From assembly GCA_029556615.1 (NCBI GenBank), contig JAKQDD010000211.1, forward strand, positions 64,001-128,000: a DNA stretch of 64,000 bases. The letters run 5' to 3'. Shown here one piece after another: positions 4,719-55,939 of this stretch; position 1 is the first letter of the stretch, and each line of letters opens with the position of its first letter. This DNA comes from Verrucomicrobiota bacterium (GTDB lineage Bacteria; Verrucomicrobiota; Verrucomicrobiia; Limisphaerales; J093). Under the pieces are notes generated by a model, which saw only the letters and a list, made by a program, of their open reading frames with translations, did no database searches and was not told the DNA's origin. A program made the translations under genes and the position numbers.

Positions 4719-6338
<1,620 letters not shown>

Positions 6339-6370
6339 GCGTACCTCTTATTGTCGGGTGTGAGTTCGAT

Positions 6371-23193: not shown

Positions 23194-23369
23194 GCGCGCC
23201 CGCCTCCTCGACGTTAGACAAGAAGTCGACTGACAGCCAGAAACCGGTGGATCTTTCCCCTGAGGCGGAGCGCGCCCGAGGCCGCCACCCCGACTACGAG
23301 AGGCTCTCACCACGCGAGCAGTGGGAGGAGGACAAGCGCCTCGGGATACTCGACTGGGACGGAAGCTAG
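23190..23369 (+). CDS. Small conserved-looking acidic protein
   Basis: This 59-residue protein starts at an ATG overlapping the upstream stop (ATGA). It is disordered at the N-terminus and ends with the compact segment SPREQWEEDKRLGILDWDG, which looks like a conserved short motif. A longer frame begins at 23169, but the overlapping start fits coupled translation. Its stop shares CTAG with the convergent sheath gene. Function unknown. Confidence 0.6.
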   Translation: MSAPASSTLDKKSTDSQKPVDLSPEAERARGRHPDYERLSPREQWEEDKRLGILDWDGS

Positions 23370-26300: not shown

Positions 26301-28663
26301 ACGACCTCCCAGCCCTTGAACCGGTCGGTCATGTCGCCGCTGGTCAGCAGCGGAACAACGACGGTGTTCCCGCTGCCTCCGTCAGCCTGACCCTGCCAAC
26401 CGCACACGGCGAGGTTGATGGCGTCGCGAACGAGACCCACCGTCGCCCCCTGGCGTGCAGGCACCACCGCGGTGACCTGCACACCCTCCATCTCAAGGAC
26501 GAGCTCCTCGGGGCGATCGATCGTGTAGGACTGACCGACGACCGACCCCTTGCCGCCCGTGTAGTTGACCACGTCCCCCACGAGCGTGGGAGGGAAGCCC
26601 GCGGTGAAGCCCGCAAGGTTGGCGGGGTCCGAAAGGTCGATGCCCGCCAGGCCCGTCATGAGGTCTGCGTTGTTCACGCGGATGCGCGCCCGGTCCGAGT
26701 AGCTGCGGACGAGCGCGTAGGGACCGGAGCCTGACACCGCGTAGCGTGCCGAGGTGGGCTGCTCCGTTGCCATGTGGACCGTAATGGTCTCCTCGACGGG
26801 ACCCTTGAAGAGGGGATCGGATACACCCTCCAAACGCGCGTCGGAGGACAGGTCGGAACCGCCCGGCCACTCGAGCGACACGTCGAAGATCGCCGGCCCC
26901 TTGGACCCAGGGTCGTAGATCGCGCAGAAGAGCGACCGGTCGCCCACGTCGAGGACTCGATAGGTCCCGAACGTCGAGGCCCCTGCACGCTCGCACCGCA
27001 GGCGGTACACCGCGTCAGAGAGCGCGTTGTAGTAGGCGGTCGCGTAGACCTTGGCCCCCACGGGGACCGGAGACCCCAGGGTGAACATCGCCCCGTTGGC
27101 CTGCACGACGCGCTGACGTCCGCGCAGCAGCGCGTCCTGCGGGTCGTAGCCCCAGTAGGCCCAGATGAGGTCCGGTCGGTCTGATGGAGTCCCCGTGCGG
27201 GTGTTGGCCGTCAGGTTGAAGAGCGACTGACCAAGCGGCGTGTCGCGCCCGTTGCCGAGCGTAGGCAGGCGGGGGTGGATGAACGACGTAGTGCTCTGCA
27301 CCACCTGCCCCCCCACGCTCTGCACGACCGGCTTGCAGGGAGCCAGGAAGTCCCGGTCGTCCAGCATGAAGGCGTCCACCTGGTCCGGACCGAACGCCAC
27401 ATACCCTGCTTCCGGGAGCTTCGCCGGCCGCACCGACCATGAGGCCCCCCACAGGATTCGGTCGGAGTCGAGCACGTAGTCCGCGCCGTCGGTGTAGGCG
27501 GATCGCCCTGGAGTGTCCCCCACCCGAACGATCCGCGTGACCCCCCGATGACCGAGGTAGTCGTAGGTGTCCTGCCAGGTGTTCGACCAGTAGGTGATGA
27601 CCACCTTGGCCCCCGCGCGCGGCGCGATCGACAGGGTCACCTGTCGAGACCGCCCATCGACCGACTCGGCAGGAATCGTTTCTCCGTCGACACGAACGAC
27701 CACCTTGGTGGGGTCGGTCGTCGTAACACCACCGTTGCTGCCATCGACGATCGGCCCCTCGTTGGTCACGAAGGTACGCCGGCGCCGGTACAGCTGCCCC
27801 GGCTCAAGCCCAAGGAGGCTGCACGCCGACCCCCCCGTCACCTCAAGCTCGTGGTCTGCGGTGAGGGACAGCGTGGACAAGCCCAGGTTGTTGAGGAGGG
27901 TACCTGCGCGCAGCGACTGAGCGCGCGCCGCCGAGATGGAGTTGGCCGCCTGCCGCATGGTGTAGCGGCCGGGCGGGATGCGAATGTCCACCGCTGCACG
28001 GTCGACGTTGAGCAACAGGCGGTTGTTGCCAGGCACCACGACCTGACCACTTGGACCGACCTGCTCGTCCATGAACTGGAGCGTCTCGCCCTGGTTGTTG
28101 TCCGCGTCCGTGTCCGCGATCCCGCGAAGCCCGTAGATGACCGCCGCCTCGGGGGTCACCTGGAACGACAGGTCGTCCGTGAACTGCGTGTCGGTGCGCT
28201 TGAAGTAGTAGGTGCAGGCCACCGTGGAGGTGGGGTCAGGGGCCACCACCAGCTCGATGATCCCCTGCACACCGTCGACAGACTGCACAACCGCAGGCCG
28301 ACCATCGACGAACACCTGAACGTCTGACTGCGACGTAGTAGGGCGTCCGATACCCGCTCCGTCGACGATCGGGTAGTGGTGGACGCGGAACTTGGTGATG
28401 ACCCCGTCGAAGTCCGTGAGGGAGATGATGCCGCCGCTCATCACCTTGCGGACCGCGCGGCCTCGCTCGTCCTCGAGCACGACGTTCTGGTCCGCCACGG
28501 AAGAGGAGCCGCGAACGATCTCCAGGTCGGTCTGCGTCAGCAGCTCCGTGCCCTCACCGATGAACGCGGGGATCCGCACCGACTCCGGAAACCCCTCGTC
28601 GGGGATCTCGATATCGGTCGTGACGTATACGCCAGGCGGGCGGTAAGTATTAACAATGGCCAC
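23366..28663 (-). CDS. Very large tail sheath protein
   Basis: The start is a GTG at 28663, six bases after AGGAGG, giving 1765 residues that begin with the sheath-like NTYRPPGVYVTTDIEIPDEG. The C-terminal about 450 residues look like a sheath core, with ALYYATYQYLKP and a final domain ending VLPLLYIDLKYTLTTNL that would join neighbouring subunits. Typical sheath proteins have 400-700 residues, so about 1000 residues are inserted, mostly beta-rich with phrases such as DGRPAVVQSVDGVQGIIEL. The insertions probably decorate the tail surface. The gene lies upstream of the tube gene. It forms the contractile tail, so the phage is a myovirus type. Confidence 0.85.
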   Translation of the reverse strand: MAIVNTYRPPGVYVTTDIEIPDEGFPESVRIPAFIGEGTELLTQTDLEIVRGSSSVADQNVVLEDERGRAVRKVMSGGIISLTDFDGVITKFRVHHYPIVDGAGIGRPTTSQSDVQVFVDGRPAVVQSVDGVQGIIELVVAPDPTSTVACTYYFKRTDTQFTDDLSFQVTPEAAVIYGLRGIADTDADNNQGETLQFMDEQVGPSGQVVVPGNNRLLLNVDRAAVDIRIPPGRYTMRQAANSISAARAQSLRAGTLLNNLGLSTLSLTADHELEVTGGSACSLLGLEPGQLYRRRRTFVTNEGPIVDGSNGGVTTTDPTKVVVRVDGETIPAESVDGRSRQVTLSIAPRAGAKVVITYWSNTWQDTYDYLGHRGVTRIVRVGDTPGRSAYTDGADYVLDSDRILWGASWSVRPAKLPEAGYVAFGPDQVDAFMLDDRDFLAPCKPVVQSVGGQVVQSTTSFIHPRLPTLGNGRDTPLGQSLFNLTANTRTGTPSDRPDLIWAYWGYDPQDALLRGRQRVVQANGAMFTLGSPVPVGAKVYATAYYNALSDAVYRLRCERAGASTFGTYRVLDVGDRSLFCAIYDPGSKGPAIFDVSLEWPGGSDLSSDARLEGVSDPLFKGPVEETITVHMATEQPTSARYAVSGSGPYALVRSYSDRARIRVNNADLMTGLAGIDLSDPANLAGFTAGFPPTLVGDVVNYTGGKGSVVGQSYTIDRPEELVLEMEGVQVTAVVPARQGATVGLVRDAINLAVCGWQGQADGGSGNTVVVPLLTSGDMTDRFKGWEVVVGDTAAAATPGQTRKVASYDPATRTITVSAPWAGGALVKGDPIRLRDPSAIPEMRGETIFDASLTISPGQFSQVAMAYVGSVTGATGVVTLDIPAGTYPTPGDLASTLEIGLNAAIAAIATKFAGLRVSFRADGDGRLVVGLRSAALDSAGALSFVAAPKGPAADFSVLAGFDTGSGFGGGQAVLVDAPVAHAFGVARSDGSRTADRLVIRGRLFPGRSGSVDPTGQAQRSTLRVLTGSAAVRVGMLVGDFGEGGPHALVRPASILMRANFGVGQDGTTGEPLVVFYDGTGQRAANNELRFTVDGQSVVVRFASSSGGTPTPVGPAANPNSLFAQVVAAMAAVQGTPFGGAGTILSSGTVRREGSGIRVTSIRSDERSIISVGDSTAAPTIGLSPGQVAERTLVSVRRLVSGLNAYRATSATTYLLRFDAAGAVGTFGNVAVASVEHDEAGSEFLHLSAIPLSSAGYGTSSQVAVRDSVIAGRVSRSWLAYGTGIGSTDGQGDIGEPRVDGFYVTSDNPNGSGSANDSVLNAGVGQDGLVGQTYRDRVTGLTFTLLPRGWSENPDGPWQSYPSGGGASFNIRSTRVITAEANRVRRVIPGLELKVSDTLRVKEADEAVLRTLDRRGLEPAVGALYYATYQYLKPSFAPGLFTRQDAVEAAYGPSIPDNPVSLAAFLAFLNGAAVVAIRQVPREGGFTKGSLAEYVRATEDLESPVGEVSVDMIMLLRGDSPELMQVQTSSNAKMSAFRIKQERTSIFGLSAGSDIATVKNVAGGLFDDRARVVYPDVAFINRADQNGVTKRYFVDGTLLAAALSGIVTSPRQDVATPWTGRRIAGFAGMGRRLSEPQANEVAAAGVTVITPIPGTLKVRHGLTTNTSNVLTQEPTVRLIADEVQQESRALLDPFIGIKYLPGVAGQVEGRLSNYLKFKKKSQIIRDYRDVKALAGGDAVSLAVAAKYAPVLPLLYIDLKYTLTTNLD

Positions 28664-28716
28664 AGCAGACCTCCTGCCAGGCGGGCGATATAGCGGGATT
28701 AAGTGGCCGGAGAGGT

Positions 28717-28977
28717 CTAGCCGCGGGACGAATCCCGCGAACGAACCTTCTCGCGAAGGTCGCGCGCGACCAAGGGAAGGTGAGGCTCGATGTGGTTCGC
28801 GTACGTGAGGACCGCTGCCCGGCACGCGAGGGCGTGCGGGTCCTGTCCGTCCAGGCGCAGCACGAAGTAGTCGGCGGACGGGTCTACGGGAGACCCGTCC
28901 GCCTTACAGATCTGGTACTTGGGGTACAGACCTCGAGCTTGGTCCTGCGGGGAGGGGTCCGTTGTGGGAGGAGTCAT
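28717..28977 (-). CDS. Small conserved-type protein, unknown function
   Basis: This 86-residue protein has the pattern YPKYQICKADGSPVDPSADY followed by FVLRLDGQDPHALACRAAVL. I associate this arrangement with short conserved hypothetical proteins of phages and bacteria. It is soluble, with no Cys pairs or membrane segment. It lies between a tiny zinc-finger-like gene and the sheath gene on the same strand. Confidence 0.65.
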   Translation of the reverse strand: MTPPTTDPSPQDQARGLYPKYQICKADGSPVDPSADYFVLRLDGQDPHALACRAAVLTYANHIEPHLPLVARDLREKVRSRDSSRG

Positions 28978-37105: not shown

Positions 37106-38182
37106 CTATCCAAACTCCTCCATGAGGAGGGCCGTGATCGCGGACATGAGCTGGTTGCGCACGTCCGACCGCCTCTGCTGCCCGCAGAGGACGATGCGGA
37201 TCTCGTCCTGGACCGTGTGACCGTGTCGTCGCGCGGACCGCAGCAGGAAGGCGTACACGTCGGGAGGAAGCTGCGCGATCTCGAACGTACCGCGGCTGGG
37301 GGCGTCCGAGTTCTCGACGTACTCCGTCGGACCCGGCGGAAACTGCGAGTCCTCCTGCATCACGTCGAACTTCTCCTCCTCCTCCGGCATCGAAGCCCCA
37401 GCCAGAGCCCCGTTTTGCGGAGCCTCCTGCGTGCTGGCCTTCGTGACCGGAAGGACGTCCGGAAGAGCCGAGGGACGCGACTGGGCCGAACCCGACGCGA
37501 TCTGCTCGGCGGCCTGGATGAGACCATCGTTCGAGGGGAGCGCGAAGTCTACGCCCTCGGTGTGGGAACTCCGAGCGGGGGGTTCTCCATCGCGGACCCA
37601 AAGCTGAATCATGCCGGGGCTCACCTCGCGTGAGCTGAGACGGATCAGCTTGAGCCCACCTTCCTCGGTCGACAGCGGGATGCGGACACCGCGCTTCAGC
37701 CGGTCGAGAGCGGCCTGAAGGCGATCCACCCCGGGCAGCGCGCAGTCCCGCACGAGGTCATCCGTGCTCCGCGTGCGATCGGCCGGCTTGGCGTGGTAGG
37801 AGGCCCAGAGGAGGATCTCGGTCAAGTTCTTGCGCCCGTCCCTCGACAGCGCGTAGGAAACCAGGTTGTCCGCCGCGATCTGGTCGTAGAGCCTGGACGC
37901 GTACGGGGTGGGGACGTACCGCGTCGGCTGGCTGCGGTCGAACGACTGCGCCTGGATGAGGCGTCCCGGTACCGCGAGGTCGTGCAGGTGGCGCGTCACC
38001 ACGCTCGTCTCGTAGCGACGCAGGATGAGACCGCTCGTGTAGAGCCGGTCCACCAGCTTGGCGGCGTCAACGCCCGGGAAGTCCCCGATCGTGGCTACGT
38101 GGTGCGCCTTCTGGTGGTCACGAAACTGCTCTGCGGCCAGCAGCACGATCCAGTGAATCAAGCTCGTCTTCTCGTGGGCCAT
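37106..38182 (-). CDS. Possible DNA-binding protein
   Basis: This 358-residue protein has a helical N-terminal part (about 1-110) with winged-helix character: VDAAKLVDRLYTSGLILRRY, then ETSVVTRHLHDLAVPGRLIQ. A disordered acidic middle region follows. A C-terminal RHH-like stretch at about 300-330 reads FEIAQLPPDVYAFLLRSARR. The N-terminal pattern and the Arc-like stretch point to nucleic acid binding, but no family is certain. It follows the E1-like gene after a 69-base gap that contains a hairpin over its ribosome site. Confidence 0.5.
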   Translation of the reverse strand: MAHEKTSLIHWIVLLAAEQFRDHQKAHHVATIGDFPGVDAAKLVDRLYTSGLILRRYETSVVTRHLHDLAVPGRLIQAQSFDRSQPTRYVPTPYASRLYDQIAADNLVSYALSRDGRKNLTEILLWASYHAKPADRTRSTDDLVRDCALPGVDRLQAALDRLKRGVRIPLSTEEGGLKLIRLSSREVSPGMIQLWVRDGEPPARSSHTEGVDFALPSNDGLIQAAEQIASGSAQSRPSALPDVLPVTKASTQEAPQNGALAGASMPEEEEKFDVMQEDSQFPPGPTEYVENSDAPSRGTFEIAQLPPDVYAFLLRSARRHGHTVQDEIRIVLCGQQRRSDVRNQLMSAITALLMEEFG

Positions 38183-38251: not shown

Positions 38252-38854
38252 CTACGCGCGCGAAGACGCGTAGACGCGACTCCCCGCGAGTCGATACTCA
38301 ACGCGCTGGCCGGAAGCCAAAAACTCCATCACAGCCCGAGCGGCTAACGCGGCCACCAGCGTGTGGGCTGGCAGCACGGTAGGGTCCGTGCAGGTCGCCA
38401 CGCCTGGCGTCTCCTGGTCCTCGGGCAACGTCCAGGAGACAACGCCCGCCGAAGCGTCCGCCGAGATCCCCGCGTGAAGGATGGGGACGTGAGCCTCCCC
38501 AGCGCGCTTCGCCGCCAGCGCGCGCGCCGCATGATTGTCGAAGCAGTCGACGACGAGACCGAGGTCTGGGGTGATGATCTTGGCCGCGTTGAAGTCGGTG
38601 AGCTCGACCGTGTAGGCGCGCGCCGTCACTCCGTGGCACGAGAGCAGGACCTGGCGGAGGGTGTCCGCCTTTAGCTTTCCGGCAGTCCCCCTCGGATAGA
38701 CCTGATTGAGCGCGTTCTTGCTCTCGACGCGATCCATGTCGAGCAGGTGGAGCCCGCCCGGATGGTTACGCAGCGCCATCGCGACGTGCGACCCGAGCGC
38801 ACCCACCCCGCAGATGAGGATGGACTTGCTCGGGGTCTGTTGGGTCTGAGTCAT
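38252..38854 (-). CDS. ThiF/E1-like ubiquitin-activating family protein
   Basis: This 200-residue protein (start ATG 38854) has the E1/ThiF Rossmann fold signatures. These are GxGxxGS at 16-22 (CGVGALGSH), the DxDxVE.. loop DMDRVESKNALNQVY at 39-53, the Lys-rich GKLKAD at 59-64, and VVDCFDN at 101-107. C155 in VATC is a candidate active cysteine. Known relatives adenylate the C-terminal Gly of ubiquitin-like or sulfur-carrier proteins. It is the minimal adenylation domain only. It lies 19 bases after the ubiquitin-like gene, so that protein is its probable substrate. The longer upstream frame overlaps the ubiquitin-like gene and is rejected. Confidence 0.82.
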   Translation of the reverse strand: MTQTQQTPSKSILICGVGALGSHVAMALRNHPGGLHLLDMDRVESKNALNQVYPRGTAGKLKADTLRQVLLSCHGVTARAYTVELTDFNAAKIITPDLGLVVDCFDNHAARALAAKRAGEAHVPILHAGISADASAGVVSWTLPEDQETPGVATCTDPTVLPAHTLVAALAARAVMEFLASGQRVEYRLAGSRVYASSRA

Positions 38855-38873
38855 GGGGCCTCTCGCGTCTGGC

Positions 38874-39161
38874 CTAACCGAACGCTGCGGAGGGACGAAC
38901 GAAGATGACGCCCGTGCCCGAGTAGGGGTCCACGGTGTAACCGCGCAGCGCGTCCTTCGGGATGGTGAGGTCCGCGAACGACTGAGGCGGGTTCGACCGT
39001 AGGGTCTCCTCGGCCGCCGCCAGGACGTCTGCGCTCGATGGCTCACCGTTGAACGGCACGGTGATCTCAGCGGACCGGTTCATGTAGGTCACGTTGATGA
39101 TCCGGTTGGTCGGATCGGAAACTCGGTTGGTGGGATCGGAAACTTGGTTGGTGGGCGTCAC
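38874..39161 (-). CDS. Ubiquitin-like protein candidate (beta-grasp)
   Basis: The start is a GTG overlapping the JAB stop (GTGA), eight bases after GGAGG, giving 95 residues. Residues 1-20 carry a repeated VSDPTNR unit. Residues 21-95 fit a beta-grasp outline: strand IINVTYMNRSAEITVPF, a helix SSADVLAAAEETLRS, then strands ending GVIFVRPSAAFG. It ends in a single Gly that an E1 could adenylate without processing. Size, Gly end and neighbours recall prokaryotic ubiquitin-like proteins such as PRTRC protein C, but sequence similarity is too weak to prove by eye. Confidence 0.6.
   Translation of the reverse strand: MTPTNQVSDPTNRVSDPTNRIINVTYMNRSAEITVPFNGEPSSADVLAAAEETLRSNPPQSFADLTIPKDALRGYTVDPYSGTGVIFVRPSAAFG
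39103..39159. repeat. 21-base tandem repeat in ubiquitin-like gene
   Basis: Two near-identical 21-base units (39103-39123, 39124-39144) and a partial third encode the VSDPTNR repeat at the N-terminus. This is a likely flexible, variable leader. Confidence 0.7.
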
Positions 39162-39652
39162 GGTAAGAACCTCCGCAGCAGCTTCGCCAGGTTGATGGTG
39201 GGTGGAGCTGAACGCATGCGCGAATCCCAACGCAGTCGTGCAGCCCACATGGGTTCGTTGTCCTCCCCAGGGTCGAACAGCACGTCAGCGTCCTGGGGCT
39301 CTTGGCACGGGTGCACGACCCGCAACCTACTGACCCGAGGAGACAGGACCCAGAAGCGAACGGGCCTACCTAGGCCCGTCGCGATCGCGCGCATCGAGTT
39401 CTCGTCGATGGACGAGAACGTGTCAGGCCCGTGAGGGTGCGTGTGCGCGATGTCGAACACTCGGTCGCGCTGCTCCCAGATGACGTCCCAGGCCGTGCGA
39501 CCCCCATCCACGAACGCGGGGGAGTCCCCGTAGTGGACGTGCAGGCTACAGCCCGCCTTGTCGTAGACCCCAAACACCTCACGGGCAGGGAACAAGCGCC
39601 CAAAACGCGGGGGGAAGAACTCGGTCACAGGGGTCCTAGTCGTCATCGTCAT
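39158..39652 (-). CDS. JAB/MPN (JAMM) metallopeptidase
   Basis: This 164-residue protein has a complete JAMM zinc motif: H70-x-H72-P73-x(6)-S80-x-x-D83 in HTHPHGPDTFSSID, with an upstream Glu (E60 or E25) as the likely general base. JAMM enzymes remove ubiquitin-like proteins or process their C-termini. Its short length matches prokaryotic JAB proteins such as those of PRTRC or ubiquitin-like cassettes. It overlaps the upstream gene by 17 bases and the ubiquitin-like gene by GTGA, so the three are translated together. Confidence 0.85.
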   Translation of the reverse strand: MTMTTRTPVTEFFPPRFGRLFPAREVFGVYDKAGCSLHVHYGDSPAFVDGGRTAWDVIWEQRDRVFDIAHTHPHGPDTFSSIDENSMRAIATGLGRPVRFWVLSPRVSRLRVVHPCQEPQDADVLFDPGEDNEPMWAARLRWDSRMRSAPPTINLAKLLRRFLP

Positions 39653-40664
39653 CCCATCCTGACCCGGATACGTGTCGAGTCACCACGAGCTTGCCCCGCT
39701 CTTCCCCCTCCCGAATGACGGAGGGTAGAGAGTCCAGGGTGAAGCGTCGGTCCGTACCTGCGAGGCACACACCAGCGTCGAGCACGTTGAGGTGCTTGTC
39801 GTCCAGGACGGACTGGTAAGTCCCTCCCCGGAACGTCCAGGTGACCTCGATGCGTCCAGCACCCGCGCGCCGCGCGTTGACAAGCTGCGCTCCCGACCTG
39901 GACAGAGAACCCACGATCCGGTCGACCCACGCCTCCCTTGCAGGCACGACCCCCTGCGTGACCACGGGAGACCCCATCCTGATAGGGACGACAGGGACGA
40001 CAGGGACGACAGGGACGGCAGGCAGGGAGCGCACGGCCTCTTGCCGCAGGGCCTGAAGGTCGAGCAGGACACGTCGCGCGGCCTCATCTCCCGCAGAGGA
40101 CACGTCGCGCAGACGCAACGCCACCTCAGGGGGAGAGAACGGCACCGATAGCGCCTGACCCGCCCGCGAGAGCAGAGCAAGCGCACCAGCTAGTCGCAAG
40201 GAGGCAGCCACACCAGAGATCGCGTCGAACCCCCGCCCCTGGAGAACAGCCTCACGGACGCTCATCTCAGGCTGATCGTCCATGTCGACACGGTCGAACA
40301 CCACCACGGAGGGGGCCCAGAATCGACCCACGACACGCGCGCCGACCTCTAGGTCCTCGTCGACCGGCGCGAAGTGTAGGTGCTCAACCCGGCCTCGGTC
40401 GTCCACGACCATCCCGTTCCAGTGGTGGCCAGAACGGGACGGTAGGGCTGCCAAGACGCGCGCCTGCTCCTCCTCCGACAGGGGCTCGCGCACGCGAACC
40501 TGTGACCCGAACCCCGTCGTGTGAAACCAGCCAGCCCGCGGAACCTCACCCCTGAGGGCTACAAGCCGACCCGTCCCGCCACCGGGGTCGGCGCGACGCA
40601 CTCCCCACCGCGATCCTCTGCGGAGGACGGGAAGCACGGCAGCGATGACGGGGTTCCTGTTCAC
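39636..40664 (-). CDS. Unknown protein between TROVE and JAB genes
   Basis: This 342-residue protein starts at a GTG after AGGAGC. A compact N-terminal domain (about 1-150), a helical middle (about 150-212), a VVPVVPVVP linker (216-227) and a C-terminal domain (about 240-332) are visible, followed by an acidic tail. There is one cysteine, C300, in GVCLAG. E2 enzymes often have their active Cys before a Leu in a similar turn, so an E2-like role is possible given the E1, ubiquitin-like and JAB neighbours. No HPN-type motif is present, so this is speculation. Confidence 0.55.
   Translation of the reverse strand: MNRNPVIAAVLPVLRRGSRWGVRRADPGGGTGRLVALRGEVPRAGWFHTTGFGSQVRVREPLSEEEQARVLAALPSRSGHHWNGMVVDDRGRVEHLHFAPVDEDLEVGARVVGRFWAPSVVVFDRVDMDDQPEMSVREAVLQGRGFDAISGVAASLRLAGALALLSRAGQALSVPFSPPEVALRLRDVSSAGDEAARRVLLDLQALRQEAVRSLPAVPVVPVVPVVPIRMGSPVVTQGVVPAREAWVDRIVGSLSRSGAQLVNARRAGAGRIEVTWTFRGGTYQSVLDDKHLNVLDAGVCLAGTDRRFTLDSLPSVIREGEERGKLVVTRHVSGSGWDDDDD
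39985..40020. repeat. Four 9-base tandem repeats
   Basis: Four copies of GGGACGACA (the last with one change) encode the Pro-Val linker of the unknown protein. Copy number could vary and change linker length. Confidence 0.75.
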
Positions 40665-40673
40665 GAGGGGCTC

Positions 40674-42452
40674 CTACGAGGTCGCAACGATGTCGCGACG
40701 CTTGGGTACGACGGGCGGCTCCAGCAGCGGGACCGCCGAGATGCGCTCCAGTAGGCCAAAACGGGCCTGTGTGGTCGCGCTTGCCACGACCGGTGCGTCG
40801 AGGAGACCTCGCAGCACGCGGGGGATCTGGTAGGTGTCCTTGAGGGCCTCCACCGCGACGTCGTTGAACGGAACACGGAGATGCGAGGCCGTCCCACGCA
40901 CGGCCTGACCTCGGGACTCGTTGCCCTGGTTGAAGATGAGCCCGACCGCGTCCGGCAGGAGGCCCGTGTTGCGCAGCAGGGCCGCGGTCAACGAACCGTC
41001 CCGATCTCCATAGTCGGACTCGTCCCCGATGACCAGAAGGATGAGGATCTCGCCCGGCTGCTTGCGCACGCCGGCCGCCGCCAGGACGTTCACAGCCGTC
41101 TTCTGGTCAGTCCCGCCTCCAGACTGGAGGGCCGAGAGCATGGCCTTGACGTGCTTGAGGCTCATCTCACCGACGTTTGGCCCCACCCCCGCGTGGATGA
41201 TGCGGCCCGCCGAGCTAAAGGCAGCCACGTGGACACGATCCGGCGCGAGGCCCGCGATGAGCGTCGGGATGATCTCCTTGGACCGGTCGATCGCACCCTG
41301 CTGTGACGCCGAAGTATCGACGAGCAGCATGACGCGAAGCGGTCGGTCGGGAACCGCCTCGGCGACCGCCTTGGCGTTGGCGCTCGCCGCGGCACCCTCC
41401 AGCAGGTCCTTGACCTTCTCGCTGCGGACGTTCTTGGCGACCGTGAGCGCACGGTGGCTGCGAGCCATCTTGGTGGCGTCGTGGACACGCTTCTGGACCA
41501 TCGGGTCCGAGTCGAGCAGACCCGACTCCTCCAGCGCGGGAGCCGCGATGATGAGGTCCTGATCGGACATCTTGGCCGTGAGCGCGCGCAGGATGTTCCG
41601 CGTCACTCCAACGGATGACGGAATCTTTCCGACCGCGACGGTGTAGGAGAGATCACCCTTCTGGATGATGGAGATGATCTCCTTCTCCGTCTTGCCCTCC
41701 CACGTGTCGCCGGTCGTCAGCTTCACTCCGATGGCCATCTCGCGGTGACCGCTCTCGGCCTGCTTCTGTCCGTAGCGGACGAGCGCGAAGAAGGCCGCCT
41801 GCTCGGGCTTGTAGCGCCCGTAGCGCACGAGGCTCCGAACCGTAGAGGCGTAGCCCGCCGACACGAGCCCCTTGAGAAGCTGGGTGTTGCGCTCGCGCAC
41901 GAGCAACCAGCGGGTCACCACCTGACGGAAACGCCCTAGCGGTGCGTTGCTGGCCCCTGCCGACCCGAAGCCAGCCTCCCGGTTGATGGCCACGATGCCC
42001 GGCGCATGCAGGAGCTTGGCAATCCGCAGCACGTCCTTGGGACGCAGGCGTCGCTCCCTGGGGACCGTCTTGTCCGCGTGGATGAGGACCATCGCCTCAC
42101 CCACGTCGCGCAGGATCTCCTGCGGCTGAACGAGCAGGAACGCGGCCAGGACGACCTTGAGGTCCGCCCAGTCGAGCTCACGCATCGCGAAGCTCGCAAG
42201 CTGCCCCACGTAGATGGGGTCCATGCGGTACAGGTCGAGGACCTGTCGGTACAGCGTCACCGCAGCGGGCTCGTATAGGCCCGGCGCGATGGGGGTCGCG
42301 GTCTTGTTGCGCCCGCGCGCCACCCACTTACCGTTGGGGCCCGCCATCCCGATGCGGCCGTGCCACAGGTGGTCGGAGAAGTTGGTGAGGGACTGGATGA
42401 TGCGCTCAGCGGCGCTCTTCTGCTGCTCAGAGGCAGCCTGTGTGGTGGTCAT
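40674..42452 (-). CDS. rsr: TROVE/Ro60-like protein with vWA domain
   Basis: From the ATG at 42452 this protein has 592 residues. Residues to about 370 are an alpha-helical repeat region of the type that forms the Ro60 ring, including KIPSSVGVTRNILRALTAKM before the vWA domain. The vWA domain carries a metal site DTSAS (379-383) and a later GGGTD and GDESD. Ro60/Rsr binds Y RNA and the ends of misfolded RNA, and in bacteria can act with exoribonucleases. A Y-like RNA lies just upstream on the same strand, the usual bacterial arrangement. The family call is by architecture and context; the symbol is provisional. A GTG at 42485 is an alternative start. Confidence 0.7.
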   Translation of the reverse strand: MTTTQAASEQQKSAAERIIQSLTNFSDHLWHGRIGMAGPNGKWVARGRNKTATPIAPGLYEPAAVTLYRQVLDLYRMDPIYVGQLASFAMRELDWADLKVVLAAFLLVQPQEILRDVGEAMVLIHADKTVPRERRLRPKDVLRIAKLLHAPGIVAINREAGFGSAGASNAPLGRFRQVVTRWLLVRERNTQLLKGLVSAGYASTVRSLVRYGRYKPEQAAFFALVRYGQKQAESGHREMAIGVKLTTGDTWEGKTEKEIISIIQKGDLSYTVAVGKIPSSVGVTRNILRALTAKMSDQDLIIAAPALEESGLLDSDPMVQKRVHDATKMARSHRALTVAKNVRSEKVKDLLEGAAASANAKAVAEAVPDRPLRVMLLVDTSASQQGAIDRSKEIIPTLIAGLAPDRVHVAAFSSAGRIIHAGVGPNVGEMSLKHVKAMLSALQSGGGTDQKTAVNVLAAAGVRKQPGEILILLVIGDESDYGDRDGSLTAALLRNTGLLPDAVGLIFNQGNESRGQAVRGTASHLRVPFNDVAVEALKDTYQIPRVLRGLLDAPVVASATTQARFGLLERISAVPLLEPPVVPKRRDIVATS

Positions 42453-42602
42453 GGCGAATAGAGTCTCCGGGGCCCGTGCGTACACGGACGAGTGAGGTCT
42501 ACGAGGAGTTGCAGGGGCTAGTAGGCGGGGCCGAAGTGGCCGGAGCTGAACAGGAGGGTTGAGATGCGAAGGCAGCTACTTCCGGGTCGTTGTCGTGGGG
42601 GG

Positions 42603-42736
42603 GACCACGTCGAGTGAGCGGACCATTGTTTGACAGAGTACAAGTCTGTTGCCTCTCCGCGAGGCGTAGATCCCAGTTGGCGGGGTCTGAGGGAGTTGAA
42701 CCCTCCGCATGTTGGGTCCGATCGAGGGACGTGGTC
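42603..42736 (-). ncRNA. Y RNA (YrlA-like) with permuted tRNA-like core
   Basis: On the minus strand the ends pair in two helices: 42728-42736 with 42603-42611 (9 bases) and CGGACC (42715-42720) with GGTCCG (42619-42624), separated by 7-by-7 bases. Inside, in order, are a T-arm (stem GAGGG/CCCTC, loop TTCAACT), and AGACCCC joined by GCCAACT to GGGATCT (6 of 7 acceptor-like pairs). These are followed by AC, a D-arm (GCCT/AGGC, loop CGCGGAG), A, and an anticodon-like arm (ACAGA/TCTGT, loop CTTGTAC). Bacterial YrlA RNAs are known to have a Ro-binding stem and such a permuted tRNA mimic, and to lie next to rsr, as here. Confidence 0.82.
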
Positions 42737-42744
42737 GCGAGTGA

Positions 42745-42772
42745 TCTATACCCGGCCTGTCGACCGGGGCAA
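42745..42772 (-). promoter_or_regulatory. Putative promoter for the Y RNA
   Basis: On the minus strand TTGCCC (42772-42767) and TATAGA (42750-42745) are 16 bases apart, each four of six to the sigma-70 consensus. The predicted start, about seven bases on, coincides with the first base of the outer Y RNA helix. Confidence 0.5.
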
Positions 42773-42776
42773 GCAC

Positions 42777-45266
42777 CTACGACTGGACGAACGAGGCGTA
42801 GATCCCCGAGGCACTACCGGTGAGACGATCCTTCAGCGCGGCGATCGTCGTGCGGATCGCGTCCATGGTCGCCTGCGAGTCGCAGAGCGCGATCGCCGTC
42901 AACGGGACGGCAACCTCGCGAGGCAACGCGGAGAGGTCCGCCGAGTTCCCGTCGGTCGCGCGCAGGATGGCGAGGGCCGTCGCGGCGAACACGAGGTCAT
43001 TCCCGCTCAGCGTCATGACGCGCGACGCGAGCGTCTGGGCCGTGCGGCGCATCTCGGCGCGGAAGGATCCCGAGCGGGCCGTGTGACCGCGCATCGTGAG
43101 CGCCGCGACCACCACGAGCGTCTGGGCGTAGGACCCGCCGAACAGGCCGTCTGCTCCCTGCTCCAGCAGGAGGTTGCGAAGCTCAGACTCTGTCACGGGC
43201 TGCCGTGCGGCACTACGGCTCAGGTCGTCCATGGAGAAGCCCAGGGTCTGGTGACCATAGCTGTCGTCGCTGCGGTCCACCGAACAGTTCAGCGAGGCCG
43301 TCCGCACCGCCATACCCTTCGGGCTACCGGCCGAGAAGGACACAGCCCCCAGGTTGCGTACGGGTGCGCCCCGCGTGACTCCGCGCGAAGAACCCCCGAG
43401 GGTCACTCCGCGCGTCATCGACTCCAGCGCACCTCCCTGGTCCTGCTCCGCGATGTTGCGGGGCATGGGGAGCACGACCGGGATGGTCTCCGGGGCGGAG
43501 AGGTTGCGCTGGTCCGTGTGGACACCAACGAGCGCAACCTGCGAGTTGACGACCCCGAAGGTGGTGCCAAGCTCCTCCAGGGTGGCGTTGTCGGCGGCGT
43601 CGAAGCGGTAGGTGAGTCGGCGGTTCTTGAGGAGCGCCCACACCGTCGAGGCGATAGCTCCGTCGTGCGCGCCGATGGCGATCGGGACGGAGACCTTGTA
43701 GTCCACCCCGTCCGGCCGCTGACCCGCCAGGATGAGGGTCGTACCCGGAGTGATCGCGCCACGGAACGCGAACAGCAACGGGCGGCCGGCGAACAGGTCC
43801 AGAGCCCCGACGGACTCGACGGAAACATCCCGTACCTGATCGCCCTCCTCGACCCGCACCTTGACCCCGGTGAGCAGCGGAGCGTCGATGGCGCTCTTGA
43901 TCGCTGCGACAGCCCCCTCGATGGCCTCATCGGCTCCGATCGGGGTGTAGGTTCCGCGTCCGGCCTCGGCGATCGCCGCGAGCATGGCGTGGTTGACCGA
44001 GTCACCGATGCCGACCACGTACATGCGGGTGTCGTGCATGTCGGCTCGCGCCGCCTTGATGACGGCCTCGGCTCCGCTCACGTCACCGTCAGTCATGAAG
44101 ATCACGACGCGCAGCGTGTGATCCATCGAGGGGCGCGGAGCCTCCTTGACCTGCACGTTGGCGATCGCCTTGTTCTGGAGGACGACCCGCAGGGCCTCCG
44201 ACGCCTCTGTGCTGCCACCGGGCTGGATGGAGTCGACGAACGCGTCCCCAGCCGCCAGGCTCTTGTCGTCGAACGGCAGGGAGGCCGGGGCGAGCGCGAC
44301 CTGCTCGTCGTCGAAGGCCACGATGTTGAAGCGGTCCTGCGGACCGAGCGCCCGCAGGCACCCCTTGACCGCGCGCTGCGCGGCCCTCATGGGGGATCCC
44401 CCCATCGAGCCGGAGCGGTCGACCAGGAAGACGACCTCGCGGGGGATCGTCACCCCCTCGTCGGCGAAGCGCGGCGCGAGGATGGCGACCGCCGTGGTGG
44501 GACCCTTGCCGTCCGGCCCCTGCGTGGCGTCGTACCGCACCCACACCTTGGGGTTCTGGCCGTCCGGGCGGTCCTGGATCTCGATGACCACGTCGCGGTC
44601 CAGGGCGACCTTGTCCACCAGGACCTCGGTCGACCCATCGTCGTCGCAGCGCGTCTTCGCGACGGTCGCCTGGTGGCTCAGGCAGCGCACCTCCAGGTCG
44701 TCACGAATCCCGACCTTGACGGTGGCACGAGCCGCGAGCGTCAGGGGACGTGGCCGGTCCAGGGCAGCCTTCTCGGTTTCCTTGAGCTTGGTCGGGTCCT
44801 CGACGTAGCGCGGCATGTAGGTCGTGGGGATGACAAGCCGATATCCGTCGGTCACCGGCAGGAGCGGGCTCTCCAGGACCACCAGGACCTCGACGTCCTC
44901 CTTGTCCTCGATGGGAGCGACCCGCAGGCGGCCGAAGTCCTCCCCCTCGGACTCACCGAGGATGGCGGTGTGCCCGGCCGCCACGGCCTTCTTGTACTCG
45001 ACCTGCGCACGCTCGCGCGGACGGAACTGCCCCTTGATCTCCCGGCTCCCCACCTTGACGGTGAGATCCCGCAGGGCACCGAACGCGGGCATCGGGAACA
45101 CCAGGTCCCCCTCGGCGACGCGGCCTGAGTCGTTGTTGAAGGTGATGCGGAGCGCGGATCGCGCCACGGGACCGTCGACGCTCACGTCGGCGTCGACGCC
45201 GCGCACGGCAAGGAAGCCGCCGCCTGCGTCCTGGAGCTTTACGGGGACAAGGGTCTGTTCGGGCAT
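42777..45266 (-). CDS. VIT and vWA domain protein
   Basis: This 829-residue protein has an N-terminal VIT domain (about 15-155, with NNDSGRVAEGDLVFPMPAFG and FRPRERAQVEYKKAV). A vWA domain from about 275 has a full metal site: DRSGS at 283-287, GGSTEAS, and FMTDGD. The rest is a helical and beta-rich C-terminal region as in inter-alpha-trypsin-inhibitor-like proteins of bacteria. There is no clear signal peptide, so it is probably cytosolic. It lies first in the cassette, upstream of the Y RNA and TROVE gene, and may be a binding partner through its metal site. An AGAGGT site precedes the ATG. Confidence 0.85.
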   Translation of the reverse strand: MPEQTLVPVKLQDAGGGFLAVRGVDADVSVDGPVARSALRITFNNDSGRVAEGDLVFPMPAFGALRDLTVKVGSREIKGQFRPRERAQVEYKKAVAAGHTAILGESEGEDFGRLRVAPIEDKEDVEVLVVLESPLLPVTDGYRLVIPTTYMPRYVEDPTKLKETEKAALDRPRPLTLAARATVKVGIRDDLEVRCLSHQATVAKTRCDDDGSTEVLVDKVALDRDVVIEIQDRPDGQNPKVWVRYDATQGPDGKGPTTAVAILAPRFADEGVTIPREVVFLVDRSGSMGGSPMRAAQRAVKGCLRALGPQDRFNIVAFDDEQVALAPASLPFDDKSLAAGDAFVDSIQPGGSTEASEALRVVLQNKAIANVQVKEAPRPSMDHTLRVVIFMTDGDVSGAEAVIKAARADMHDTRMYVVGIGDSVNHAMLAAIAEAGRGTYTPIGADEAIEGAVAAIKSAIDAPLLTGVKVRVEEGDQVRDVSVESVGALDLFAGRPLLFAFRGAITPGTTLILAGQRPDGVDYKVSVPIAIGAHDGAIASTVWALLKNRRLTYRFDAADNATLEELGTTFGVVNSQVALVGVHTDQRNLSAPETIPVVLPMPRNIAEQDQGGALESMTRGVTLGGSSRGVTRGAPVRNLGAVSFSAGSPKGMAVRTASLNCSVDRSDDSYGHQTLGFSMDDLSRSAARQPVTESELRNLLLEQGADGLFGGSYAQTLVVVAALTMRGHTARSGSFRAEMRRTAQTLASRVMTLSGNDLVFAATALAILRATDGNSADLSALPREVAVPLTAIALCDSQATMDAIRTTIAALKDRLTGSASGIYASFVQS

Positions 45267-45405: not shown

Positions 45406-45573
45406 ATGAACACCCCGAACTACGAAGACTGCCCCAAGTGTGGGCTTCCGATGTGCGAGCAGCAGTACCCCCGGCAGGAGGTCTGCCGGTGTCACGAGAA
45501 GGAAGAGGAGGAGGAGACGGAGGAGGAGACGGAGGAGGAGAGCGCCGGAGAGGCCCCCGGCGCTCAGAGCTAG
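45406..45573 (+). CDS. Small Cys-rich acidic protein
   Basis: This 55-residue protein starts at ATG 45406 and reads MNTPNYEDCPKCGLPMCEQQ, with six Cys residues in pairs (CPKC, then C, then CRC) suited to zinc binding, followed by a Glu/Thr-rich acidic tail. An in-frame GTG at 45361 would add 15 residues, including part of the inverted repeat. It faces the cassette divergently and its stop shares CTAG with the major capsid gene. It is a candidate regulator or binder; function unknown. Confidence 0.55.
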   Translation: MNTPNYEDCPKCGLPMCEQQYPRQEVCRCHEKEEEEETEEETEEESAGEAPGAQS

Positions 45574-46484
45574 CGGGTGATGATGAGGCGCGAGAGGCCG
45601 AGCGGGTTGTGGCAGATGAAGCCGAGCTGCTCGAAGACCGAGAAGCCGATCTGCCGCTTCACGGGGTCGTCCGCCGACAGGACCGTGAGCTCGGTGCGAA
45701 CCGGGATGCGGCCGAAGTACTCCGGCTCGCAGCACACGTAGCCGACGCCGACCGGGACGATGATGGACACGATGATCCGTGCCCCGTAGATCGTCCCGAG
45801 GATGCCGGTGTTGAGCAGCGTGTTCTGCGTGTCGAAGTCGAGGATCTCCCGACCGAACTTTCGCAGGTCCGCGTAGTCACGCGCGTTCAGGAAGAAGTGC
45901 GCGACCCGCAGGTTGTTCCGCTCGACGAGCGCGTAGCTGTCCGCGATCTGCTGACCCGACAGCGGGGCCACCACCGGGATGTCCGGGTTGGTCTGGCCGG
46001 GGATGTTGTCGAATCCCGCCTCGGCGGTCGAGTCGATGATGACGAACACACGGTCGTCCTCGCTCGCCATGATCTGGGCCTTGGCCAGCTCCTGGCAGCG
46101 CTCGATCAGGTCGTACCGGCGCTCCTTGATCTGCTGGTACGGGATCATCGGAGCCGTCGCGATCTCGATGAGGGGGACGTTGACCCGGCGCGGCTTGATG
46201 ATGGCCTGCACCGACTCGCCGTCCTCCCCCACGACAAAGGCCGCTACTTCCGGATCCTTGTCGTAGATGGCCAGCGCGCCGTCAGGAAGCTGGTCGACCT
46301 TGAACGCCTTGCGGCCGACCGCCTGGTAGTCGCGCTTGAGACGCAGCGGCTGCTGCATGGAGGCGGCCAGCTTCTGGAAGCCACCCTTGGTCTTGAGCAG
46401 GCGTCCGATCACCTGCTGCTTGTGCGCTGCGATCGAAGCCGGATCGGAACCGGGAGCGCCGTTCTGCATGTTGGGCGTGTTCAT
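45570..46484 (-). CDS. Major capsid protein (HK97-like)
   Basis: This 304-residue protein has the shape of short HK97-fold capsid subunits. An N-terminal helical arm is followed by the core segment EIATAPMIPYQQIKERRYDL, a helix IERCQELAKAQIMASEDDRV, and a C-terminal part with VPVGVGYVCCEPEYFGRIPV. Similar sequences are major capsid proteins of large tailed phages. It follows the protease, EF-hand and accessory genes, the normal head order. It forms the capsid shell. Confidence 0.85.
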   Translation of the reverse strand: MNTPNMQNGAPGSDPASIAAHKQQVIGRLLKTKGGFQKLAASMQQPLRLKRDYQAVGRKAFKVDQLPDGALAIYDKDPEVAAFVVGEDGESVQAIIKPRRVNVPLIEIATAPMIPYQQIKERRYDLIERCQELAKAQIMASEDDRVFVIIDSTAEAGFDNIPGQTNPDIPVVAPLSGQQIADSYALVERNNLRVAHFFLNARDYADLRKFGREILDFDTQNTLLNTGILGTIYGARIIVSIIVPVGVGYVCCEPEYFGRIPVRTELTVLSADDPVKRQIGFSVFEQLGFICHNPLGLSRLIITR

Positions 46485-53920: not shown

Positions 53921-55939
53921 CTATACCGGGCTGACAGCAGGCGCGGGGGCCTGCTGTCGGGCGAGCGCCGCCGTGACCACACCCTCCACGAGCACCGAGA
54001 GCTTGTGGTCCAAGGCGTCCACGAAGGACGCGAGCTGCGCGTCCCGTACGGCCCGCTTGGACTTCTTGCTGGCGAAGCGACTCATCGAGGGGTCCGGTCC
54101 AGGCTTCATGGTGATCCCGAGCGATGCGGCGATGCGGTCAGAGAGGTCTGAAGACTCCGCGATCTTCTGCGCGACCGCCCCGTAGATGGCGCGGGGGAGC
54201 TCGTTGAAGGTGGGATCGTTCACCGTGAACAGGTCGTGCTTGACGCGCGTCTTGATGGCGTCCCCGTCGAGGCCGAGCACGTCGTAGATGGTCTCCACGT
54301 CGAGGCTGCCCTTCTGATAAAGATTGAAGAGCGCGTCGAACACCTCCTGGTGGTCACGGATCCCGATGCGAGTGAACGACAGGCGCGGGAACACGGTCTG
54401 TAGGTTGCCGTCCTCGTCCTCCTCGACGAACCCCATCCTCGCGCACATGGGCTCAAGGATCTGGAAGTCCACGAAGTTGCAGAGCTGCTCGCGTCGCAGC
54501 ATGTCGCGCCAGTTGATGACCTCCAGGTTGATGCGATCTCCCGAGTAGCTCGCCTCACCGGACAGCAGGCTCTCGGTCACCCCGAGACCCGCGTACAGGT
54601 GGCGGTCGATGCGATCGTGCTCGGAGGTGAGCTCAAGGAGCCGGTTCTCCTGCCCGCCGCCCCGCTCCTCCCAGTGGACCTCGAAGTTGGTCACGATGCT
54701 GTAGTCGGGGTCCTGGAGCGCCAGGTCCACCTGGTCGCGCAGGTCGTCTACCTGCGCCTGCGACATGTTCTCTCCCCACACGATGCGGTAGGGAGTCATG
54801 TGACGAGACGCGATGCTCGTCTGGGCCTGCCGGATCTTGTCCTCGAACACGAGGTCCCGCAGGCAGCGCTGAAGCACCGAGGCTCCTCTGAGCTGGTAGT
54901 CGGTGCGCCGCCGCGAGAGGTACGCGACGAACGAACCCGCGTAGGGATCGGTGTTGAGCGGGATGGGCTGCCCGGAGCGGACGAAGTCGACGACGTCCGG
55001 CGACATCGTCGCGACCACCTGACGCGCCCGCTCGTCCCCGTTGTCGGCCTTCTCGACGAGTTCCTTCGCGCGATCGTCGGGCATGAGGTCGAACGTCCGC
55101 AGGTCCGTGTGCGGGTACGCCTCCATGTTGACACGGTCAGCCGGCAAGGTGCGGATCGTCGTCCACCCCTTGTAGTTCTTCTTGAGCCACGCGACCTCAC
55201 GCTCCTTGGCGTCAGGGCGCTGGTTCCAGACCTTGCGGAGGTCGCCCGTCTGAGAGTCTGGGACGAGCACCTCCTCCCCCACCACATCAGGAGGCATGTC
55301 CGGCGTGGTGTCCTCGATGAACGCGTAGCAGTCCCCAAAGAGGGACATCTCGTGCGTCACGACCATGAGGCGGTCCAGCAGCTTGATCCGGTCCGCCCAG
55401 CGCTCACAGAAGCGCATCGCAGCGTCGGCCATCGCCTTGTTCTTGGCGGCCGGACGCTTGAGGCGCACCTTCGACAGCAGCATCTCGGTGCGCAGGTCGA
55501 TCGCCTGACCAACCACCGGGTGGTTGTCGTAGAACCACTGGTAGAACATGCGCAGCTCTTCCTGGCTCTGCGGGAGCTCTAGGAAGTCCGTCGAAAGCTG
55601 CGGGCTATAGTAGTTCCCACCCGACCCGAGCATGACCGACGAGGGGAGGTCGCCACCCTGTGACATCGCGGCCGTACGCCGACTGAAGATCGGCCGCGGG
55701 ATAACGGTCCGAGGAGGACCCGCCGACACCGGTGGATTCCCCCCTACCGCACCGCGCGAGGGGACCTTTCCGACCACAACGCCGTCAGGTGTATTGGCCG
55801 CCTGACGCGGTGAGGGACGCTGCGACTTACTCGACGACTTGCGCGACGAGCGACCCTGTGAGCTGGGATTTCCTCGCTGAGGTCTTGGGTTCTTAGCCGC
55901 TTGCTTCTTGTCACGCCGTCGCTGTCGATTGCGTCCCAT
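53921..55939 (-). CDS. Portal protein
   Basis: This 672-residue protein has a basic, disordered N-terminus (about 1-90). A portal-like core follows, with LPQSQEELRMFYQWFYDNHP, HEMSLFGDCYAFIEDTTPDM and a helical region ending in GLDGDAIKTRVKHDLFTV. The place directly after the terminase and acidic genes supports a portal. It would form the dodecameric DNA gateway at one capsid vertex. Identification is by pattern and order. Confidence 0.75.
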   Translation of the reverse strand: MGRNRQRRRDKKQAAKNPRPQRGNPSSQGRSSRKSSSKSQRPSPRQAANTPDGVVVGKVPSRGAVGGNPPVSAGPPRTVIPRPIFSRRTAAMSQGGDLPSSVMLGSGGNYYSPQLSTDFLELPQSQEELRMFYQWFYDNHPVVGQAIDLRTEMLLSKVRLKRPAAKNKAMADAAMRFCERWADRIKLLDRLMVVTHEMSLFGDCYAFIEDTTPDMPPDVVGEEVLVPDSQTGDLRKVWNQRPDAKEREVAWLKKNYKGWTTIRTLPADRVNMEAYPHTDLRTFDLMPDDRAKELVEKADNGDERARQVVATMSPDVVDFVRSGQPIPLNTDPYAGSFVAYLSRRRTDYQLRGASVLQRCLRDLVFEDKIRQAQTSIASRHMTPYRIVWGENMSQAQVDDLRDQVDLALQDPDYSIVTNFEVHWEERGGGQENRLLELTSEHDRIDRHLYAGLGVTESLLSGEASYSGDRINLEVINWRDMLRREQLCNFVDFQILEPMCARMGFVEEDEDGNLQTVFPRLSFTRIGIRDHQEVFDALFNLYQKGSLDVETIYDVLGLDGDAIKTRVKHDLFTVNDPTFNELPRAIYGAVAQKIAESSDLSDRIAASLGITMKPGPDPSMSRFASKKSKRAVRDAQLASFVDALDHKLSVLVEGVVTAALARQQAPAPAVSPV

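Follow-up and report, generated by a model that had tools for sequence, protein, structure and literature searches.

Our analysis identified a conserved genetic unit of large phages in which a gene for a Ro-like protein stands beside the genes of a ubiquitin-like modification system. The window analyzed here, a stretch of 64,000 bases (bases 64001-128000 of the 155,322-base contig JAKQDD010000211.1, part of a 260-contig genome bin), carries five such genes, encoding the Ro-like protein (TROVE-vWA), a conserved protein named UNK, a JAMM/JAB metallopeptidase (JAMM), a ubiquitin-like protein (Ubl) and a ThiF/E1-like adenylyltransferase (ThiF/E1), with a predicted Y-like RNA upstream of them (Table 1). 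An earlier note on this DNA had described these elements, together with a VIT-vWA protein, as one minus-strand block of a phage. All the named elements are present there, and the proposed cassette joining a Ro/Y RNA pair to E1, Ubl and JAMM is strongly supported, being conserved in dozens of large phage contigs, where the genes usually occur together and mostly in one order. As far as checked, this is a real, conserved and undescribed phage system. We tentatively propose, at rather less than an even chance, that the module couples a Ro-like ribonucleoprotein (RNP) to its own Ubl tagging kit, using a tRNA mimic as bait for the reversible tagging of tRNA-acting enzymes.

The genes of the window are tightly packed. 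A gap of 9 nt separates TROVE-vWA from UNK, whose frame shares 17 nt with that of JAMM, and the close joining of the last three genes described in the earlier note holds: the JAMM stop and the Ubl start share the letters GTGA (39161-39158), and 19 nt separate Ubl from ThiF. Annotated phages were searched with tblastn: Virus Rctr197k carries a match to the Ro-like protein (E = 6e-73), the 595-kb phage record LR756511 has one to the C-terminal part of UNK, and in each of these records all five genes lie on one strand. As a single-sequence query, the TROVE-vWA protein of the window recovered no relatives in viral and genome contigs; three-member alignments succeeded. In scans of IMG/VR, the Ro-like alignment returned 10 loci and the UNK alignment 14, one of them shared, which gave 23 distinct loci. 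Three were removed (L013 as nearly the same as L012, L026 as a copy of L025, and L031 because it shares its contig with L019), and the two phage records and the window were added, resulting in 23 non-redundant loci.

All five genes lie on one strand in 22 of these 23 loci, so the neighbourhood extends beyond this genome; in the remaining locus (L011) the contig ends just past the Ro-like gene. The Ubl gene comes first in three of the 22 complete loci (L003, L028 and L032). Identity to the TROVE-vWA protein of the window is as low as 18% among its relatives, and a TROVE search of 194 sampled genomes of the phylum returned the window itself and one weak match (residues 356-492).

A second scan was seeded with ThiF only, and 80 of its 97 loci, with 71 distinct ThiF C-termini, were kept. 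All five genes (E <= 1e-4) were found in 64 of the 80 loci and lay on one strand in each of these 64. The co-occurrence in a shared order that the earlier note had suggested looking for was thus recovered: 59 of the 64 complete loci have the order TROVE-UNK-JAB-Ubl-ThiF, and Ubl comes first in five. By name, 59 of the 80 loci are on new contigs (44 of them complete) and 21 on contigs seen before. The 16 incomplete loci include five that show ThiF alone and some that are cut, such as L056, at a contig start, and L110, where Ubl (seen in L032) falls outside the retrieved stretch.

The five genes are also what recurs in the surrounding DNA. Clustering by BLAST of open reading frames (ORFs) of at least 90 amino acids from the 23 loci placed TROVE in 23 loci, ThiF in 22, JAB and UNK in 19 each and Ubl in 18; by inspection, the remaining clusters with at least eight loci are other-frame overlaps of cassette genes, and the next real-looking family occurs in 6 of the 23 loci. 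No recurring structural gene family emerged from this clustering. Retrieved stretches with at least 11 tRNA genes predicted by ARAGORN were found at 12 of the 23 loci. The VIT-vWA protein was considered as a further member of the unit and rejected, given that other cassette loci show vWA-level similarity only; this part of the block described earlier is peculiar to the present genome. The VIT-vWA protein has strong similarity to TIGR03788, the marine sortase target model (E = 6.3e-82), yet falls below its cut-off.

The three aspartate and serine positions of the vWA DxSxS motif (D390, S392 and S394) are invariant in all 23 TROVE-vWA proteins, and VWA_2 was matched by 22 of the 23 at E <= 0.1. 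The N-terminal part of the window protein has no Pfam match. A profile built from three relatives matched the PDB "TROVE domain-containing protein" 9l5y/9kop (E = 8.6e-6) over residues 241-406, a segment running from within the N-terminal region into the first part of the vWA domain; a second profile (A11) matched PDB TROVE chains at E = 2.2e-4, and hhalign against a bona fide TROVE protein covered 215 columns (E = 8.5e-5, probability 60%). Alignment with the TROVE protein of phage crAss001 covered 31 vWA columns only, at the start of that domain. From these profiles, the Ro-like protein appears to be a remote relative of the TROVE family, short of a certified member. Among the profile relations assumed in the earlier note, those of E1 and JAMM were recovered, whereas the TROVE relation fails in Pfam and is remote by PDB-sequence profiles and hhalign.

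The residues invariant in the 22 E1 proteins (G16, G18, A19, G21, S22, D39, D41, N47, Q51, K62, D103 and C155) presumably form the Rossmann ATP site and the catalytic center, and the family profile matched the structures of MoeB (E = 3.3e-18), uba4 (E = 2.4e-16) and a SUMO E1 (E = 8.9e-15). The cassette JAMM family carries the E...HxHP...S..D motif of JAMM metallopeptidases, with H70, H72, P73, S80 and D83 invariant in 22 of 22 members and E25 in at least 90%; its profile matched the RPN11 and BRCC36 structures weakly (best E = 0.0018).

Searches of Pfam, NCBIfam, PHROGs and PADLOC gave no convincing match for Ubl. An AlphaFold2 model of the L014 homologue (pLDDT 88, pTM 0.74) has the beta-beta-alpha-beta-beta order seen in beta-grasp proteins. 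Foldseek matches to this model were weak (best E = 0.075, none at 0.001); among the 50 listed, most were PI3-kinases, whose Ras-binding domain is ubiquitin-like, together with UBL, PB1 and BILBO domains and a few unrelated proteins such as IRE1, MreB and ZorD. The modeled fold is probably a beta-grasp. At its C-terminus the family has the pattern R-P-x-x-x-F/Y-G, with R89, P90 and G95 invariant in 22 members; the protein ends exactly at the glycine in 8 of the 22, and a tail of one to more than 50 residues follows it in 14. The presence of these tails past a conserved glycine suggests that JAMM may trim them.

UNK was found in 22 of the 23 loci, the remaining one being cut by the contig end. 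It is built of a beta-rich N-terminal domain, a long helix and a C-terminal domain with a G-x-C-L motif (G298, C300 and L301, invariant in 22). A structure model of the L014 homologue (pLDDT 85, pTM 0.57) gave nothing at E <= 0.001 in fold searches of PDB and BFVD, and the L014 sequence matched PADLOC RmrT weakly (E = 0.0068). The GICL...F-T-L motif resembles the catalytic region of E2 enzymes. UNK was nonetheless rejected as an E2, as no E2 Pfam family was matched by the 22 members (E <= 0.1) and none appeared among the 50 PDB fold matches listed. In the public record KX853510 (L002), the gene Rctr197k_234 is annotated at 13081-14025 on the strand opposite the UNK gene, and the Ro-like gene is entered merely as a misc_feature.

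The Y-like RNA of the window reads as a complete tRNA in circularly permuted order, namely T-arm, 3' acceptor strand, a short loop bearing CCA, 5' acceptor strand, D-arm and anticodon arm. It is mounted on a stem whose outer part is a perfect 9-bp helix (42728-42736 with 42603-42611; shuffle p 0.04-0.05) and whose inner part is CGGACC/GGTCCG; the division of the stem into two parts was recognized by eye, here and in some relatives. Rfam gave no match in the window and none at E <= 1 within 42400-42860, and the fold of the whole 291-nt gap upstream of the Ro-like gene was no better than that of shuffled sequences (z = -0.81). A descriptor scan of the 23 loci returned 25 matches, compared with 0.85 per set in 30-base block shuffles, which break up tRNA neighbourhoods and so leave the adjacency artefact uncontrolled. 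On reading, nine of the matches proved to be genuine permuted RNAs, while the remaining 16 mostly looked like neighbouring normal tRNAs taken together.

A covariance model (R1) was trained on eight of these nine RNAs (L023 was left out), a set chosen for pairing and for the presence of an anticodon arm, which makes pair counts on the set itself circular; the assessment therefore uses the later loci described below. The window RNA, itself part of the training set, scored 68.1 bits (E = 3.6e-14). The YrlA model of Rfam (RF02553) did not match the training RNAs of L018, L022 and L030 even at E <= 1. With R1, 29 sources yielded 202 hits at that threshold, and 150 were aligned; 109 of these overlapped ARAGORN tRNAs and were set aside, leaving 41 tRNA-free hits, training sequences included. 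An outer helix of at least 9 bp was present in 21 of the 41 tRNA-free hits, in 8 of 60 tRNA-overlapping hits sampled from the 109 and in 11 of 80 ordinary tRNAs (of 308), and a shuffle p of 0.05 or less was reached by 18, 0 and 7 of them, respectively.

The search was extended to 56 of the 80 ThiF-seeded loci, the other 24 being near-copies or on contigs already searched. R1 gave 35 hits at E <= 1e-8, of which 27, in 22 of the 56 loci, were distinct and free of ARAGORN tRNAs. The outer helix reached at least 9 bp in 19 of these 27, and 12 of the 27 begin within 500 nt after the ThiF frame. Over 32 distinct rows (five of them overlapping ARAGORN tRNAs), 96.6% of pairs were standard and 18 of 20 pairs had changes on both sides. 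Covariation reached 0.839, while slid or shuffled pairings gave 0.07-0.20, a large contrast in an alignment that leans towards structure, its rows being selected by and fitted to a model whose training set was chosen for pairing. The acceptor has 7 bp, and CCA lies in its loop in 17 of the 35 model hits. The 5-bp anticodon arm also covaries (98.1% paired), in a model whose training set was chosen to have such an arm. Among the 21 anticodon loops of seven bases, 12 have U33 and all 21 a purine at position 37; the loop has another length in 6 of the 27 RNAs. These RNAs look like mimics rather than decoding tRNAs. We regard the Y-like RNA as real, a predicted structured and permuted tRNA mimic on a stem that recurs at cassette borders.

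What appears to be a second RNA class was also seen near the cassette, with ACAxGC followed by D-arm, anticodon arm and T-arm in normal order and, judged by eye, a stem or hairpin in place of the acceptor; its sites are L025, at about 6143-6340, L012 (15061-15171), L033 (3261-3654) and L015 (17236-17345). Elsewhere in the bin, at least one sub-threshold YrlA hit was rejected as two neighbouring tRNAs taken for one RNA, an artefact that the descriptor and R1 hits share.

The closest known systems each resemble one half of the cassette. The bacterial Ro60 (Rsr)/YrlA pair likewise has a TROVE-vWA gene beside a stem-mounted RNA with the order T-arm, acceptor, D-arm, and the Rfam YrlA consensus shares the two-part stem and this order with the phage RNAs but lacks the anticodon hairpin. 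The phage RNAs add an anticodon arm and have a 7-bp acceptor, and those of the window, L018, L022 and L030 gave no RF02553 match; by this comparison they are YrlA-like RNAs plus an anticodon arm, which widens the range of bacterial Y RNA architectures to include an almost entire permuted tRNA. On the protein side, Ubl, a ThiF-type E1 and JAB occur together, as they do in the cassette, in prokaryotic E1/Ubl/JAB clusters, in CBASS-like E1-E2 systems and in PRTRC; the cassette differs in that no E2 was found and in its link to TROVE and the RNA. None of the PRTRC ThiF, JAB and Ubl models was matched over its cut-off, the only hit being TIGR03736 at 25 bits against 144.75, and the PADLOC E1-E2 models matched along one part of their length, taken for the E1 part.

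Published accounts, cited here by PMC identifier and used in extract, describe the halves apart. Ro60/YrlA operons carry RNA-repair genes, often RtcB/RtcA, in the place where the phage cassette has Ubl, E1 and JAMM (PMC7790460). Bacterial operons with E1, Ubl, JAB and E2 have been described, as have Ubl and JAB in phage tail clusters (PMC1779556). In the latter, the lambda/T1-like tail assembly protein I and the JAB-NlpC protein TAPK combine a Ubl-like domain with a terminal glycine and a JAB domain (PMC1779556); the cassette differs in its free-standing Ubl and JAMM, in the presence of E1 and in that other loci are not tied to a tail cluster. TROVE proteins have been noted in a small subset of jumbo phages (PMC7824862), in RsoM2USA (PMC8504454) and in crAss001 (PMC8375218, PMC10136315), as well as in Borgs, which are not phages (PMC9605863). 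The extract of PMC7824862 contains no mention of JAB, ThiF or JAMM, and "ubiquitin" occurs in it twice, once for the ubiquitination of hosts by eukaryotic viruses and once in a reference; for none of the phage TROVE proteins do the extracts give a link to Ubl, JAB or ThiF. A search of open-licence literature, subscription papers being outside it, listed no paper whose title, opening of the abstract or extracts connect a Ubl system in phages to TROVE or Y RNA. As far as checked, the new elements are the union of the two systems, UNK and the anticodon-bearing Y RNA, the other parts being of known kinds or remote relatives.

In crAss001 (MH675552; L034 and L045), the TROVE protein gp96 (PF05731, E = 5.5e-13) is encoded away from an adjacent pair of JAB (gp77; Prok-JAB, E = 4.9e-4, below cut-off) and ThiF (gp76; E = 8e-16). 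Comparisons gave no support to gp78 or gp75 as counterparts of UNK, or to gp75 as a counterpart of Ubl.

Ro RNPs and ubiquitin-like systems have hitherto been separate subjects; that many large phages keep the two together as a unit implies that they have a biochemical step in common. In the mechanism that we tentatively favor, TROVE-vWA would bind one or more stem-presented permuted tRNA mimics made near the cassette borders; what is observed here is the proximity of the genes, and binding is argued from Ro-Y biology. Given the conservation of their site residues, JAMM would trim tailed Ubl to the conserved glycine, and ThiF/E1 would adenylate this glycine and then bind it through C155 in thioester linkage. 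The UNK gene lies between those of TROVE and JAMM, and its product may join the two halves as an adaptor or transfer factor. The tRNA-like part and its anticodon arm could act as bait for enzymes that act on tRNA, the likeliest being anticodon nucleases of the host or enzymes of tRNA processing. Enzymes so held on the RNP might be tagged with Ubl, and thereby inhibited or removed, and JAMM would reverse the tag; this step as a whole, from bait to reversal, is the least certain. The module would protect the tRNA supply and translation of the phage. This reading is favored by the tRNA-rich neighbourhoods (12 of 23) and by a published suggestion in which the tRNA-like part of YrlA is a possible competitor for an anticodon nuclease (PMC7790460). 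If Ubl is indeed conjugated to proteins held on a tRNA-mimic RNP, the cassette would represent RNA-directed protein modification and a new form of phage counter-defence.

Several observations weigh against this proposal. According to the same source, YrlA itself is no substrate of that anticodon nuclease (PMC7790460). PF05731, the Pfam TROVE family, was matched by none of the 23 members at E <= 0.1, which makes membership remote. The pairing of RNA and cassette is partial, with an RNA passing the cut-offs in just 22 of 56 loci, and the anticodon loops are below decoding grade, which fits a mimic and weakens the idea of an anticodon-specific bait. Pfam and PDB fold searches of the UNK family identified neither an E2 nor an E3. 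Binding, conjugation and target are inferred.

It is possible, though doubtful, that Ubl instead modifies the RNP itself, its attachment to TROVE, to UNK or to a partner nuclease controlling the assembly or activity of a phage machine for RNA decay or RNA repair. TROVE and UNK are the constant neighbours of the tagging genes, and Deinococcus Ro-Y RNPs are known to tether an exoribonuclease (PMC7790460). No further family recurs widely near the cassette to supply such a nuclease, a role that a host enzyme could still serve. We consider unlikely a more specific form of RNA-guided tagging, in which a Ro RNP with one or several permuted tRNA mimics, anticodon arm included, captures tRNA-acting host defence enzymes and UNK transfers a reversible Ubl tag to them through the cysteine of its GxCL motif.

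The MoeB and uba4 structures as the nearest matches of the E1 profile, and again the tRNA-rich neighbourhoods, would also fit a sulfur carrier, with E1 and Ubl feeding the thiolation of phage or host tRNAs and JAMM acting as a processing peptidase. Urm1/Uba4 and TtuB/TtuC are tRNA thiolation systems with such carriers. However, known sulfur carriers end in Gly-Gly and Ubl in Phe-Gly or Tyr-Gly; by reading of the clusters, no further family, and hence no candidate thiolase, is present in more than 6 of the 23 neighbourhoods; and TROVE, UNK and the RNA are left unexplained, which makes this role distinctly unlikely.

The location between capsid and tail genes, on which the earlier note relied, holds for the window and is not shared by the other loci. 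It would suit a Ubl that is attached to proteins of the virion or tail, a role already proposed for tail protein I of lambda with its JAB partner, and Ubl-JAB pairs have been described in tail clusters (PMC1779556). Those tail pairs consist of Ubl with JAB/NlpC, the extract of that paper mentioning neither E1 nor TROVE there (PMC1779556), and with tRNA-rich stretches at 12 of the 23 loci and no recurring structural family, virion tagging seems very improbable. That unrelated systems have come to lie at one locus by chance or as cargo genes, as the separate TROVE gene of crAss001 and the absence of at least one of the five genes at 16 of 80 ThiF-seeded loci (of all the others at five) might suggest, is hardly credible when set, strand and order are kept in 64 of the 80 loci of divergent phages.

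Table 1. Features of the window, with positions counted from its first base.
Feature	Position	Strand	Basis
Tail-sheath, weaker match	23366-28825		E = 1.2e-6
ThiF/E1-like adenylyltransferase, 200 aa, catalytic-Cys candidate C155	38252-38854	minus	PF00899, E = 6.9e-19, over cut-off
Ubl, 95 aa, GTG start, C-terminal end VRPSAAFG	38874-39161	minus	Family of 22; structure model of L014 homologue
JAMM/JAB metallopeptidase	39158-39652	minus	Prok-JAB, E = 6.5e-4, below curated cut-off
UNK, conserved protein of unknown fold	39636-40664	minus	Family conservation; model of L014 homologue
TROVE-like (Ro-like) protein with C-terminal vWA, 603 aa	40674-42485	minus	vWA PF13519, E = 1e-6
Y-like RNA (predicted)	42603-42736	minus	Sequence, fold, descriptor scan, covariance model
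VIT-vWA protein	42777-45266	minus	PF08487, E = 1.7e-18; directly upstream of Y-like RNA
Phage major capsid protein	45570-46484		E = 2e-47
Portal protein	53921-55939		E = 1.4e-21

Other observations concern the window and its bin. A second large protein, encoded at 552-3035 of the window, was matched by the iterated Ro-like profile (E = 2.5e-17), probably through a vWA domain and with a score possibly inflated by iteration. The ORF adjoining ThiF (37106-38182) has a weak C-terminal match to a FitA-like ribbon-helix-helix (E = 0.0014, below cut-off). On another contig of the bin (C179, locus L043), a bona fide TROVE gene (12085-13818, E = 4.2e-41) lies among tRNA genes, with sub-threshold matches to YrlA and the Deinococcus Y RNA upstream of it and, nearby, an ORF (10742-11215) that by eye looks like an RtcB fragment. 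Finally, a third contig of the bin (C242, locus L044; 194,784 bases) has 36 tRNA genes densely arrayed within 16 kb.

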